IMG/VR virus record: IMGVR_UViG_3300033894_000009
Location: 1-26,139 of that record
DNA from: a virus
Direction: 5' to 3' (one strand)
Length of the DNA stretch: 26,139 nucleotides
In this document: positions 1 through 19,395 of the stretch, in pieces
Layout of the letters: each line of letters begins with the position of its first letter
Numbering within the stretch: position 1 is the stretch's first letter
Notes under the pieces: generated by a model
The model's input: the letters and a program-made list of their open reading frames with translations, nothing else
Told to the model about the DNA's origin: nothing
Database searches by the model: none
Program-made: the position numbers and the translations under genes

Positions 1-1341
1 GTTTATTACGACCAAGAAAGCTTCGGCTTGTATGATATATTAAACAATGTATTGAATTTAGATATAAAGATAGACAAAAAGAAAATGCAAAAGCAAGGCT
101 TTGGCGGGCTATTCTTTACTCAAGAACAGTTAGAGTATGCTTCAACGGATGTATTGTATTTACCAAAACTTTATAAAGCAATCCTTAATCTTGAACCTAA
201 ATTCTTTACACACAATAGAGTATATAGAATGGATTTATTCGTGGCTAAGATGATGCTTGATATTCACAGAGTAGGATTAAAAGTGAATAAAAGAAAGTTA
301 AATGAAAGAAAGGCTGAGCTTGAGAAAAGATTAAAAGAGTTTAGATTTGATTTTAATCCTTTATCCCCGCAACAAGTAGCTACGCATTTAAATACACCAA
401 AAGCAGATAAAGAGATATTACAAGACCTTGCTTACAAAGGCAATGAAACAGCTAAAGCAATCTTAGAGTATAGAAAGATTTCTAAGCTTTTAAACTTCAT
501 TGAAAAATTTAACCAAGATAGAGTGTATGGTAAGTTTAATGTTGCTGGAGCTAAGAGCGGTAGAATGACTTGCAGCAATGAGAACATTCAGCAAATACCA
601 AGAGAGTTAAGGAGTGTGTTTGGTTTTACTGAAGATGAAGATAAAGTGTATGTAATAGCAGACTTCCCACAAATAGAACTCAGGCTTGGAAGTCTAATTT
701 GGCAAGAGGATAATATGATTAAAGCTTTCGAAGAAGGTATAGATTTACATAAATACACTGCTTCAGTTATCTATAACAAAGATATGGAAGCAGTGAATAA
801 AACAGAAAGACAGATAAGTAAATCGGCTAACTTCGGCTTGCTTTACGGAATGAGTGGGCGGGCTTTTTCCAAGTATGTTTATACAAACACAGGCATTGCT
901 TTAACAGAAGAAGAAGGAGAGTTTATTAAACATAAATGGTTGGAGACATATCCAATGATAGCAAGAAAACATTTACAAATTAAAGAGAAGTTATACTCTT
1001 CAAACTATTACGAAGGCTCTACTATACTTGGTAGAAAGTATAGAACACAATCTTTCAACGAAGCTTTAAACTTGCAAATACAAGGAAGTGGAGCTGAGTT
1101 ATTAAAACAAACTCTAATCAATCTCAAACAAAAATATCCTTCATTAGACATAGCAAATGTTATACACGATGAGATAATTATTGAATGTCATAAAGATGAA
1201 GCTACCGATATAGCAAATGCTTTAAGACAAGAAATGGAGCAGGCTTGGGATTTTATATGCAGTAAATCTAAACTACCTATAAAATATTTTAAGCTTGAAG
1301 TAGAACAGCCAGATGTGATAAAATCAATAGCAAAATCTTAG
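1..1341 (+). CDS. polA: Family-A DNA polymerase with 3'-5' exonuclease domain (5' end outside window)
   Basis: Replicative phage DNA polymerase. The frame is open from base 1, so the TTG at 28 is not the start and the N-terminus lies outside the window; 446 residues are visible. Numbering from the first visible codon, residues 1-60 are the end of a DnaQ/RNase D-like exonuclease domain, with the Exo III signature Y46-A-S-T-D50. The polymerase domain follows: motif A DFPQIELR (from D221, bases 661-684), the O-helix R270-x3-K274-x3-F278-x3-Y282, and motif C HDE (389-391, catalytic D390). Motif A reads DFPQIELR instead of the usual DYSQIELR. This and the domain set recall the hot-spring viral 3173 polymerase and Aquificales relatives (recognised from memory). 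F278 is at the Taq F667 position. The next gene starts 10 bp downstream with its own Shine-Dalgarno. Confidence 0.95.
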   Translation, partial: VYYDQESFGLYDILNNVLNLDIKIDKKKMQKQGFGGLFFTQEQLEYASTDVLYLPKLYKAILNLEPKFFTHNRVYRMDLFVAKMMLDIHRVGLKVNKRKLNERKAELEKRLKEFRFDFNPLSPQQVATHLNTPKADKEILQDLAYKGNETAKAILEYRKISKLLNFIEKFNQDRVYGKFNVAGAKSGRMTCSNENIQQIPRELRSVFGFTEDEDKVYVIADFPQIELRLGSLIWQEDNMIKAFEEGIDLHKYTASVIYNKDMEAVNKTERQISKSANFGLLYGMSGRAFSKYVYTNTGIALTEEEGEFIKHKWLETYPMIARKHLQIKEKLYSSNYYEGSTILGRKYRTQSFNEALNLQIQGSGAELLKQTLINLKQKYPSLDIANVIHDEIIIECHKDEATDIANALRQEMEQAWDFICSKSKLPIKYFKLEVEQPDVIKSIAKS

Positions 1342-1351
1342 GAGGTGTTAA

Positions 1352-2392
1352 ATGGATTTAAAGCAAAAGTATAAAGAAATCCAAGAAGTTTATTTATCTC
1401 AGAATAAGCCGTTTGTTGTCGGTTTTAGTGGCGGTAAAGACAGCACAGCTTCTTTACAATTAGTTTGGGAGGCTTTATCACAAATTAAAGACAAGCTTAC
1501 TAATCCTGTTTATATCATATCTTCAGACACGTTTGTAGAAATTCCTAAAGTAGTCAATTACTTAGATAAAACATTAGAAAAGATAAAAGAGACAGCAGAA
1601 AGAGAAGGCTTGCCTTTCTATGTAGAGAAAGTAGTGCCTGAGTTAAAAGAGAGTTTTTGGACTTGTGTAATCGGTAAAGGCTATACAGCTCCGACAAGAA
1701 AGTTTAGATGGTGCACGGATAGGTTAAAGATTAGACCTACTAATAATTTTGTAAAAGATAAAATCTCAAAGCATGGTGAGGTTATCATAGTGTTAGGAGT
1801 AAGGTCATCGGAGAGTAAAAACAGAAGCAGAACTATAAAAGAGAAATCTATAGACAATAGCTTATTCCTTAAACATAACTCTTTAAAAGGTGCTTTGATT
1901 TATCCTGTTATTAGAGATTGGAGTGTAGAAGATGTTTGGGATTACTTACTTAGAAATCCTTCACCTTTTGGTGTAGATAATAGAGAACTATTTGCTTTAT
2001 ACAAACAAGCGAATGCGGGAGACTGCCCTGTTATAGTAGAGCTTAAAGAAGGCTCAGAAAGTAGCTCCTGTGGTAATAGTAGGTTTGGTTGTTGGACTTG
2101 CACGGTTGTTGAAAAAGAAAAATCCTTAAGCTCTTTAATTGAAAACGGCGAAGATTGGTTAAAACCTTTGGCAGAGTATAGAAAGCTTTTATTAGAAAGC
2201 TCTAAAAAGCCTGAGTTAAGGAGAGATAAAATCAGAAAAGGTAAAGTAGTAAAAGGCGGTTTTACATTAGAGTTTAGGAAGGTTTTATTAGACAAGTTAT
2301 TAGAAGCAGAAAAACAAACAGGGCTTAAGCTTATATCCAATGAAGAGATAAACTTAATAAAAGAAATTTGGCAAAAGGAGGAAGCTCAATGA
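1352..2392 (+). CDS. dndC: DndC-family ATP-pyrophosphatase / PAPS-reductase-like DNA sulfur-modification protein
   Basis: 346 residues, about half to two thirds the length I remember for bacterial DndC. In the Dnd pathway DndC activates the DNA backbone with ATP, acting with a cysteine desulfurase (DndA/IscS) and DndD/DndE to replace a non-bridging oxygen by sulfur. Visible motifs: PP-loop SGGKDS (26-31), SSDTFVEIP (57-65), RWCTDRLKIRP (119-129), LGVRSSES (148-155), and C225 with C240-x6-C247-W-T-C250 followed by VVEKEKS. The last block is the DndC hallmark and a likely Fe-S ligand set. These motifs separate it from ordinary CysH. AGGAGG ends 6 nt before the ATG. It lies 10 bp after polA, and its TGA overlaps the next ATG (ATGA). 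No dndA, dndB, dndD or dndE is in the window. The exact reaction is inferred; an orphan thiolase of another nucleic-acid substrate remains possible. Confidence 0.87.
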   Translation: MDLKQKYKEIQEVYLSQNKPFVVGFSGGKDSTASLQLVWEALSQIKDKLTNPVYIISSDTFVEIPKVVNYLDKTLEKIKETAEREGLPFYVEKVVPELKESFWTCVIGKGYTAPTRKFRWCTDRLKIRPTNNFVKDKISKHGEVIIVLGVRSSESKNRSRTIKEKSIDNSLFLKHNSLKGALIYPVIRDWSVEDVWDYLLRNPSPFGVDNRELFALYKQANAGDCPVIVELKEGSESSSCGNSRFGCWTCTVVEKEKSLSSLIENGEDWLKPLAEYRKLLLESSKKPELRRDKIRKGKVVKGGFTLEFRKVLLDKLLEAEKQTGLKLISNEEINLIKEIWQKEEAQ

Positions 2393-2589
2393 TAATGTAT
2401 GTCTGTGATTTATGTAAAGCTTCTACTTTAATGGATGAGATAGTTTTTGTTGATGTTATGAAAGGTAGAGATAGATATCAGTTTGAGTTATGCGAAAGGT
2501 GTTATAGGAGATTGTTTAAAGATGTGAAAAAGAGAAAAGCCGATTTAGAAGCTTTGATGGAGGTTGAGGAAGATGAAGAAGATACTTGA
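2389..2589 (+). CDS. Small Cys4 zinc-ribbon protein
   Basis: A 66-residue protein with two CxxC knuckles, C6-x2-C9 and C35-x2-C38, consistent with one structural zinc, then a basic stretch (RRLFKDVKKRKADLE) and a strongly acidic tail. ATG 2389 is chosen because AAGGAGG ends 6 nt before it and it overlaps the dndC stop as ATGA; the in-frame TTG at 2368 lacks a ribosome site. Its role is unknown. It could be a DNA-binding regulator or an accessory to the flanking sulfur-modification and nuclease genes, with which it is surely co-translated. The 3' end overlaps the nuclease gene by 17 bp. Confidence 0.8.
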   Translation: MIMYVCDLCKASTLMDEIVFVDVMKGRDRYQFELCERCYRRLFKDVKKRKADLEALMEVEEDEEDT

Positions 2590-2902
2590 AATTCCTACGA
2601 ACAAAATCTTTCAGAAAGAAAAAGAGACTTATAAGTTTTTAAAAGATTATGTATTTGATGAAGCAGTAAAATTATATACACCAATCATTAGAGGCTTTCC
2701 TGACTTTATATCAGTAAGCTATAAAAAGCCTTATAGTGAAGTGTTAAAGCCTGCTTTTATTGAAGTGAAGCTTAACAACGGCAAGCTCTCACTTCACCAA
2801 GCGAAGTTTTTAGGTTGGTTAAGCAGAGGTTTTACAGTCTATATTTTCAATTTTAAAACAATTGATAATGGCAGTATTATACAAGTAAGAGAGTGGGATT
2901 AA
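2573..2902 (+). CDS. VRR-NUC-like PD-(D/E)xK nuclease
   Basis: A 109-residue single-domain protein. The visible core is G41-F-P-D44, then E64-V-K66 (the PD...ExK catalytic pair), then Q76 in LSLHQAKFL, and a final strand VYIFNF. This order, G-x-P-D / E-x-K / HQ, is typical of VRR-NUC and small Holliday-junction-resolvase-like phage nucleases that cut branched or flap DNA. ATG 2573 is preferred over TTG 2564 because GGAGG (2559-2563) sits 9 nt upstream of the ATG and directly abuts the TTG. It is the last gene of the rightward block, and its stop lies in the loop of a hairpin with a T-rich tail. Substrate specificity cannot be read from sequence. A role in recombination or replication is the default; a link to sulfur-modified DNA is only positional. 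Confidence 0.75.
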   Translation: MKKILEIPTNKIFQKEKETYKFLKDYVFDEAVKLYTPIIRGFPDFISVSYKKPYSEVLKPAFIEVKLNNGKLSLHQAKFLGWLSRGFTVYIFNFKTIDNGSIIQVREWD

Positions 2903-17802: not shown

Positions 17803-18212
17803 TCTTCAACCTGCACTTCTATAAAGTCTTCAATAGATTTTTGAGTTGTTATGTTTATATTTATTAAAGGAGTAGATGCTTGGTCTTGTTTTGGTTTTAG
17901 TTTGTCAGTAGCATTAGATAAAGAAGATAACTTGTCGGCAATCATAATTTTAGTTTGTATAAGCTCATTCATTGTCCTTGCTGGGTTTTTAGATTTTTTA
18001 AGTATATCAGCATCGTTAAATAAAAGCTCAACTTCAATATAAGCCTGTCGTAAAATTTTTCTTGCAGTCTCTAAATCTTCTACCTGTCTATAGGTAGAGT
18101 AATTTACTACATCATCTTGAGAAAACTTTACAGAAGCTTTCTCTTTAACTACTTTCTCTAACTCATCTTCTTTTTTAACAGGTAAGTTATTTTCCAAGTT
18201 TTGAGAACTCAT
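17799..18212 (-). CDS. Possible terminase small subunit (uncertain)
   Basis: A 137-residue helical protein. Residues about 47-108 (DLETARKILRQAYIEVELLF, then KSKNPARTMNELIQTKIMIADKLSSLS) resemble the helical hairpin of T4-type small terminases, where a motif of the type S-x-H-P-R-A-Y-E-V-x-x-x-L-I-K-T occupies the same place. The N-terminus is acidic/basic mixed and disordered, and the end is beta (LININITTQ). GGAGGA precedes ATG 18212. The gene overlaps the ATP-grasp gene by 26 bp and the next gene by 4 bp. It is not next to terL, which weakens the call; a generic tail or head completion protein is the alternative. Confidence 0.4.
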   Translation of the reverse strand: MSSQNLENNLPVKKEDELEKVVKEKASVKFSQDDVVNYSTYRQVEDLETARKILRQAYIEVELLFNDADILKKSKNPARTMNELIQTKIMIADKLSSLSNATDKLKPKQDQASTPLININITTQKSIEDFIEVQVEE

Positions 18213-19395
18213 TATAACAGTCCTCCAACTGCTCTAACTCATCTGTTAAAGAGTAAGCTTCAATCTTGCTAAGCAAATCAGACATAGTTTGTTTGATATT
18301 AATAAAGTCTAATTTATCAAATACTTCGCAAACTATACCTCCTGAAGGTTGCTCTGCTTTAGGTATGTAATACTCATTTTTAACTTTCATCAAAGCTTCA
18401 AAGTTATATCTTTTGTCTTTATCAGGATATTTTATATTAACAAACATGTTTCTTGTTTCGGTTATATTGAAAGGCACTGCTACATAATACTTGCCTTTAT
18501 ACTTTGGATTAGCACCGCCAAATACCACATCTTTAAAATTTTCTATTGCATGTCTATAGCCAAGAGACAGAGGATATGCTCCTCTTGTTGTGATATCTAA
18601 AAAGTAATGCTTACCTGTTTTAAGATTGATAAACTCTTCAGTAGAAAGCATTCCTTTATATCCAGTTTTAATTAACAACTGAGATAGCTTTAAAACTGTT
18701 TCTTGCATTGGTTTAGGTAATTCACCAAGATTGTTTATAACTCTGCCTATATAAACACCTTTGCGATATTCAACTCCAAGCAATAAAGGAAAGATAAAAC
18801 CGCCTTTATCAGCATCAAAGAAAGCATCTATACCTGCCTCTACATAGTTTTTATCTAAATCCATTAACTCTTCAACTACAAACTCCATATCGTTTAAGAA
18901 AGCTCCAAACTCTATCTCAAGCTTTGTCTTAATATTTTTCTTCTGTGTTTCATTCTTGAGTATGAAAGTCTCCATAGAGCCTCTGAATATAGATAGCTTA
19001 ACAACTGATGGCACAGGTATATTATCATATCCTTTAACAATCTTGTAATTAGGTGATGGTAAATTGATTACATTTAAAGCAGATTTCAAAGCTTTTCTAT
19101 TCAACTCTAACTCTGTAGCTACTCCACCGCCAAATGTTTTGTAGCCTTTCTTTTTCAAAAACTCAAATAAATCTCCATTAAGAACATCAAAGTTAGCTAT
19201 CAAATCTACCTTGTCTATGTATGAAAAAGGATTATGCACTTTCTTTATATTAGTAAATCCGTAGCCTGATGCAAAATCATCAAATGAAGGAAAGGTTGAA
19301 ATGAAGTCCGTGTAATAGTAAGTCTCAACTCCTGCTTCCGCTAAAGCTAAAACATGCGAAAATTCTATGCCTGTGCCAATTACTAACGCTTTCAT
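18187..19395 (-). CDS. ATP-grasp enzyme (carboxylate-amine ligase-like)
   Basis: 402 residues. The N-terminus is a pre-ATP-grasp Rossmann-like domain (KALVIGTGIEFSHVLALAEAG), like that of PurD. Residues about 87-130 (GGGVATELELNRKALKSAL, then LPSPNYKIV and VVKLS-x2-RGSMET) match the ATP-binding lid and adenine-strand pattern. EFVVEELM and later GMLSTEEF plus HYFLDITTRGAYP supply acidic metal ligands; the last replaces the usual E-x-N-x-R. Such enzymes couple ATP hydrolysis to amide or peptide bond formation through an acyl-phosphate. Purine synthesis is unlikely for a lone gene in a morphogenesis operon; modification of a virion protein or a cell-wall peptide is more likely, but the substrate cannot be told. 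It overlaps the 146-aa gene by 4 bp (coupled) and the following gene by 26 bp. Confidence 0.8.
   Translation of the reverse strand: MKALVIGTGIEFSHVLALAEAGVETYYYTDFISTFPSFDDFASGYGFTNIKKVHNPFSYIDKVDLIANFDVLNGDLFEFLKKKGYKTFGGGVATELELNRKALKSALNVINLPSPNYKIVKGYDNIPVPSVVKLSIFRGSMETFILKNETQKKNIKTKLEIEFGAFLNDMEFVVEELMDLDKNYVEAGIDAFFDADKGGFIFPLLLGVEYRKGVYIGRVINNLGELPKPMQETVLKLSQLLIKTGYKGMLSTEEFINLKTGKHYFLDITTRGAYPLSLGYRHAIENFKDVVFGGANPKYKGKYYVAVPFNITETRNMFVNIKYPDKDKRYNFEALMKVKNEYYIPKAEQPSGGIVCEVFDKLDFINIKQTMSDLLSKIEAYSLTDELEQLEDCYNEFSKLGK

Follow-up and report, generated by a model that had tools for sequence, protein, structure and literature searches.

A DndC lacking the C-terminal DndD-docking domain in pyrovirus-like phages

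The window, i.e. the whole stretch of 26,139 bases analysed here, is a virus record of a hot-spring bacterial virus, and one of its genes encodes a protein which, judged by its sequence, is a genuine DndC core deprived of the C-terminal DndD-docking domain. Tentatively, and with a likelihood somewhat below even, this protein is considered to be a natural, functional and reduced DndC, accessory in pyrovirus-like phages, which would sulfurate phage DNA by means of a host desulfurase and without DndD or DndE.

Assignment of the gene product to DndC

The dndC reading frame starts with an ATG placed 10 nt 3' of the polA stop (Table 1). The first-pass annotation had taken its product for DndC rather than for a generic CysH fold, and this assignment is borne out by profile scores, motifs and phylogeny. 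The NCBIfam model of DndC (TIGR03183) is matched with 379.2 bits, the cut-off being 290.4, over model positions 3-365 of 447, while the PADLOC profiles give 436 bits for DndC, 71 for BrxP and 55 for SspD, so that SspD is not its best profile match.

Table 1. Features described in the text (window positions, unless another locus is named)
Feature	Position	Strand	Basis
Family A DNA polymerase (polA), 5' part lost at contig end	28..1341	+	Pfam DNA_pol_A 5e-56
GGAGGTG, Shine-Dalgarno-like, for dndC	1341..1347	+	reading of the sequence
dndC, 346 aa, without C-terminal DndD-docking domain	1352..2392	+	TIGR03183 score, tree, negative C-terminal HMM
PP-loop SGGKDST, residues 26-32	1427..1447	+	invariant in alignment
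DNA specificity loop GYTAPTRKFRW, residues 110-120, variable triple T-R-K	1679..1711	+	alignment to E. coli-type GYPAPTRSFRW (PMC12193691)
Cys121, counterpart of [4Fe-4S] ligand Cys146 of E. coli B7A DndC	1712..1714	+	alignment; PMC12193691
Cys225, counterpart of further conserved DndC cysteine Cys262	2024..2026	+	alignment; PMC12193691
Cys240, counterpart of predicted fourth cluster ligand Cys273	2069..2071	+	alignment; PMC12193691
CWTC: Cys247 and Cys250, counterparts of cluster ligands Cys280 and Cys283	2090..2101	+	alignment; PMC12193691
66-aa cysteine-pair (zinc-ribbon-like) protein; ATG overlaps dndC stop	2389..2589	+	
VRR-NUC-like nuclease	2573..2902	+	Pfam VRR_NUC E 0.001, under curated cut-off
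402-aa protein	18187..19395	-	
dndC of G002 (L003 copy), early stop	L014:9988-10854		
ThyX matches at one end of G001	L011:19461-19913; L012:461-1366		
Split C-terminal proteins	L112:4537-4752; L117:4534-4779; L023:5810-6067; L026:7535-7735		tail HMM
Split C-terminal proteins	L028:11114-11314; L040:10544-10804; L118:4388-4606		tail HMM

The motifs read in the protein are SGGKDST, SSDTFVEIP, GYTAPTRKFRWCTDRLKIRP, GDCPV and SSCGNSRFGCWTC, and in an alignment of 69 proteins it keeps SGGKDST, the DT motif, the loop GYTAPTRKFRWC, DCP, SCG and GCWTC. Thus, the protein retains its PP-loop and specificity loop, as well as all four cysteines predicted to bind the cluster and the additional one of DndC. 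In the DndC of E. coli B7A, Cys146, 273, 280 and 283 are the predicted [4Fe-4S] ligands, Cys262 is an additional conserved cysteine, and the central triple of the GYPAPTRSFRW loop tracks the DNA motif (PMC12193691). This triple is T-R-K in the window and S-R-K in L002, an independent contig with a DndC 85% identical to that of the window; no DNA motif can be predicted for the window protein, because its triple matches none of the published classes exactly.

In the tree, the window protein is nested within the canonical DndC of dnd operons (branches 97 and 95), apart from the type found in Thermus phage Tsatsa and from CysH-like phage proteins. The first-pass annotation had named a placement with phage CysH-like proteins, away from DndC, as the result that would refute it, and the tree does not show this. 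An approximately unbiased (AU) test rejected the grouping of the window protein with Tsatsa (p = 0.0007). Placing it with two further short phage DndCs, a group picked after inspection of the tree, was disfavoured (p 0.011). Two phage rows of the alignment are compositionally atypical, which makes the exact placement less sure. Profile scores, motif table and tree together rule out an origin among phage CysH-like proteins. Four of 398 genomes sampled from one bacterial phylum had a DndC above the cut-off, and these served for the tree only. Moreover, the AlphaFold2 model (pLDDT 87) displays a PP-loop/CysH fold, in which residues 222-243, containing two of the cysteines, are badly modelled; by fold search, DndC is not separable from other PP-loop enzymes, and no DndC was found by sequence search among solved structures.

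The absent docking domain and the other dnd genes

The protein had also been described as shorter than bacterial DndC, which holds true: cellular DndCs run 82-145 residues past its final residue in the alignment, and the match to TIGR03183 ends at model position 365-367 of 447. For E. coli B7A, the predicted contacts of DndD on DndC are residues 433-482 and the last helix, and three combined point mutations in the first of these interfaces abolished DndD binding (PMC12193691). Both predicted DndD-binding surfaces map, by the alignment, to the absent C-terminal part, and the earlier suggestion that DndD and DndE may be borrowed from the host is therefore disfavoured. An assembly error as the cause of the short length is ruled out by L002, which has the identical 346-aa end.

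The existence of the docking domain as a separate protein was examined with an HMM of the DndC C-terminal tail, searched against all ORFs of at least 25 aa. As positive controls, a separate protein of 66-86 aa was recovered beside short DndCs in seven loci (Table 1). Among the ORFs of the window, of G001 (the contig of L002) and of G002, a related contig, no match was obtained, either fused or split. Since the search recovers the domain in seven split systems, the negative result in the phages reflects a real lack of both forms, and a split docking domain hidden nearby is discarded as well. Further, the 'DNA modification system-associated small protein' found near short cellular DndCs matches the docking domain of full-length DndC, i.e. 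it is a split DndC.

The first-pass annotation had seen no other dnd genes in view, and this observation stands: neither DndD nor DndE was matched in the window (a fragment), G001 or G002, and phmmer gave no match for DndA, DndB or DndD, the absence of divergent DndA and DndB resting on single-query searches. Solitary dndC genes are frequent in the wider collection. No DndD match was found in 36 of the 41 records with DndC-like genes, nor in 15 of the 20 with DndC above the cut-off, two of these 15 having a DndC that stops at the contig end. The docking domain is present in the solo DndCs of L020, L022, L024, L025 and L027, and as a split protein in L040; it is absent from those of the window, L002, L031, L033, L034, L035 and L036. 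The plasmids L113 (Hymenobacter) and L114 (Streptomyces) also carry a solo DndC with the dock, with no DndD in the stretch examined. These two plasmids and the six viral records bearing the dock are candidates for the borrowing of host DndD and DndE. In the bacterial genome G192 (loci L103 and L107), a DndC adjoining DndD coexists with a second, solo DndC, identical to the DndC of the 58-kb virus record L020. Three records were set aside as cellular or mobile dnd clusters and not phage solos: the gut 'phage' records MT838064 and MT838014, where dndC adjoins dndD, and MT836308, where dndB-dndC lies by a large HerA-like gene and an incomplete dndD.

With regard to the neighbourhood, dndC does lie directly after polA, as had been pointed out, but a conserved coupling of both genes is not upheld, since relatives with the same polA are devoid of dndC. 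In L095 and L096, polA and the VRR-NUC-like gene are present and dndC is missing between them; the VRR-NUC-like gene is also conserved in relatives without dndC, and homologues of the 66-aa cysteine-pair protein were found in its absence. A dedicated partner among the neighbours (66-aa protein, VRR-NUC-like protein or helicase) is ruled out, as each of them is also found without dndC. Elsewhere in the window, a 402-aa protein kept in G001 and G002 had no match in Pfam, PHROGs, NCBIfam or PADLOC.

Phage lineage, selection and restriction sites

G001 comprises 41,880 bases with identical ends of 71 bases, and from these exact repeats it looks like a complete genome. It carries the same 346-aa dndC, together with genes for a beta-clamp-like protein, a SNF2/ResIII helicase, a Cas4-like nuclease, DUF927, PolA, a VRR-NUC-like protein and ThyX. 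ThyX is matched twice at one end of G001; as the loci overlap there and the first ORF runs into the boundary of its locus, both matches may stem from one gene. 'Pyrovirus' is an uncultivated group of putative Aquificota phages (PMC7689252), with which the window lineage has in common a related PolA and the order of helicase, Cas4-like nuclease, primase/PolA and structural genes. The PolA of L002 is 86% identical to that of the window and 41% identical, over the shared part, to that of a pyrovirus. Primase and PolA are separate genes in the window lineage, which is on this ground placed as a sister lineage of the Pyrovirus group, and from this affiliation its host is probably a member of the Aquificota. 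The text of PMC7689252 holds no mention of PAPS, phosphoadenosine, Dnd or phosphorothio, and a scan of genome contigs yielded one remote match only.

The dN/dS values, 0.070-0.084 between the dndC genes of the window and L002 and 0.073-0.080 between the window and the first 285 codons of L003, indicate that the gene is under strong purifying selection. In the G002 copy, the loss of one base within a poly-A run leads to an early stop near residue 288, and the sequence 3' of the frameshift is still conserved; given the poly-A run and the conservation beyond it, the shift is read as either recent or a sequencing error. The idea that the gene is a functionless, decaying remnant taken from a host dnd operon, to which this early stop lends some support, is thus very improbable in view of the dN/dS of 0.07-0.08 between copies, the identical 346-aa end in two divergent genomes, and the nature of the G002 shift itself.

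As close relatives lack the gene at the same site, dndC is considered accessory. A more divergent dndC exists in L036, a polyprotein pyrovirus, at another location, where its relative L098 has none. Tree and gene location suggest that the window and L036 genes are likely to be separate acquisitions; a single clade of both was not rejected by the AU test (p 0.109).

In the window, G001, G002 and L095-L101, the palindromes GATC, GTAC, CTAG and GGCC, and often GCGC, TCGA and CCGG, are almost fully avoided, under both a Markov null and a codon-shuffle null. This avoidance fits heavy restriction pressure in the hosts and is silent on phosphorothioate. Under the Markov null, no non-palindrome is more depleted in the window and G002 than GAAC/GTTC, the phosphorothioation site of the E. 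coli type. In a comparison that covered the window, G002, L096, L129 and L125, observed/expected values with the codon shuffle were 0.44-0.63 in the window lineage, the site being also depleted in L096, which has no dndC, and more weakly in G001, which has it; no depletion was found in L095 or in the polyprotein pyroviruses. The depletion does not go along with the presence of dndC.

Possible function and comparison with known systems

In the tentatively preferred reading, an IscS-type cysteine desulfurase of the host would supply persulfide sulfur to the phage DndC, which would activate the DNA phosphate with ATP and introduce phosphorothioates into the phage genome at a short motif. The DndD/DndE machine might be dispensed with, perhaps since phage replication already opens or nicks the DNA, and the probable benefit would be a shielding from host restriction. 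IscS has been shown to substitute for DndA in vitro (PMC10853773), and the conserved specificity loop favours DNA as the substrate (PMC12193691). On the other hand, DndD and DndE are considered essential in the Dnd systems studied (PMC8569181), which counts against a reaction free of both, and the GAAC/GTTC statistics, which do not track dndC, are a point against a sulfurating DndC. The gene is, moreover, accessory, and its polA and VRR-NUC neighbours are also found without it, so that no coupling to replication is apparent. The stricter form of the proposal, a one-gene phage phosphorothioation enzyme with DndC freed from DndD/DndE and gaining access to DNA through phage replication instead of an ABC-ATPase machine, is possible but rather doubtful.

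Alternatively, the phage DndC could join host DndD and DndE, via other surfaces or with a split C-terminal protein of the host, in a mixed complex modifying phage DNA. Short DndCs do function beside DndD in cellular split systems with a small C-terminal protein, several phages have a solo DndC bearing the dock, and G192 has, besides a dnd operon, a DndC that recurs unchanged in a virus record. However, the window lineage possesses no docking domain, fused or split, its DndC belongs to the canonical clade and not to the split one, and DndD binding did not survive the triple mutation of the first interface (PMC12193691), so that such borrowing, plausible for the phages with a dock-bearing DndC, is less so for the window, for which it is judged unlikely.

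It is also quite unlikely that the sulfur goes to tRNA, to a nucleotide or base, or into CysH-like sulfur metabolism. The fold is common to PAPS/APS reductases and to [4Fe-4S] tRNA thiolases such as NcsA and TtuA, and many PAPS-reductase-like proteins occur among viral records; but the window protein retains the DndC-specific loop and the extra cysteine region, missing from CysH-like and Tsatsa-type phage proteins, and its position in the tree points the same way. Finally, the protein could be a decoy which, by sitting on phosphorothioation sites or tying up the host cysteine desulfurase, disturbs a host Dnd system without any modification being made. The retention of the DNA loop and the loss of the docking part would be possible in a dominant-negative protein, and other phage attacks on Dnd systems are known, such as JSS1_004 (PMC12345140). 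This has a low probability, as the PP-loop and all cluster cysteines, needless for a pure decoy, are kept under strong purifying selection.

DndC, DndD and DndE are regarded as an inseparable modification machine. The existence of a natural dock-less DndC maintained by selection raises the question of whether DndD/E are required for the sulfur-swap chemistry or access to DNA suffices, and the 346-aa, probably thermostable protein is a candidate for structure determination and assays. The solo DndCs of phages fall into two classes, those with the dock, which could borrow host DndDE, and those without it; moreover, some phage 'PAPS reductase' annotations may conceal phosphorothioation enzymes.

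Compared with known systems, the window protein shares PP-loop, specificity loop, cysteines and clade with the canonical DndC of Rhizobium, Pontibrevibacter, Halorubrum and E. coli, its core being 47-49% identical to the Rhizobium and Pontibrevibacter proteins. Unlike canonical DndABCDE, it is found without the docking domain and without detected genes for DndA, B, D and E. The split systems of Aureimonas and of Rhizobium phaseoli plasmids, formed by a short DndC, a small protein and DndD, have a DndC of 379 aa with an end point near that of the window, but they keep the dock as a protein of 71-81 aa, include DndD and belong to another clade. SspD (Ssp) and BrxP (BREX type 4) are phosphorothioation PP-loop enzymes working without DndD, to whose profiles the window protein scores low. 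The PAPS reductase-like proteins of the Thermus phages Tsatsa and P23-77 (PMC11437467) are also short PP-loop proteins of thermophile phages, 37% identical in the alignment, though the Tsatsa type is without the two extra-cysteine segments.

In the literature collection searched, no paper on phosphorothioation in Aquificota or on solo or orphan DndC was found. In phage AP-20-A (p002, PMC13299392) and prophage phiT073-031 (PMC12429752), compared here by their published annotation only, DndC has been proposed or listed as defence-related, their hosts being rhizobial and those of the window lineage hot-spring bacteria. Phage-encoded DndC has already been annotated in both of these reports, and the novelty is the dock-less form, kept by selection, in relatives of the pyroviruses.
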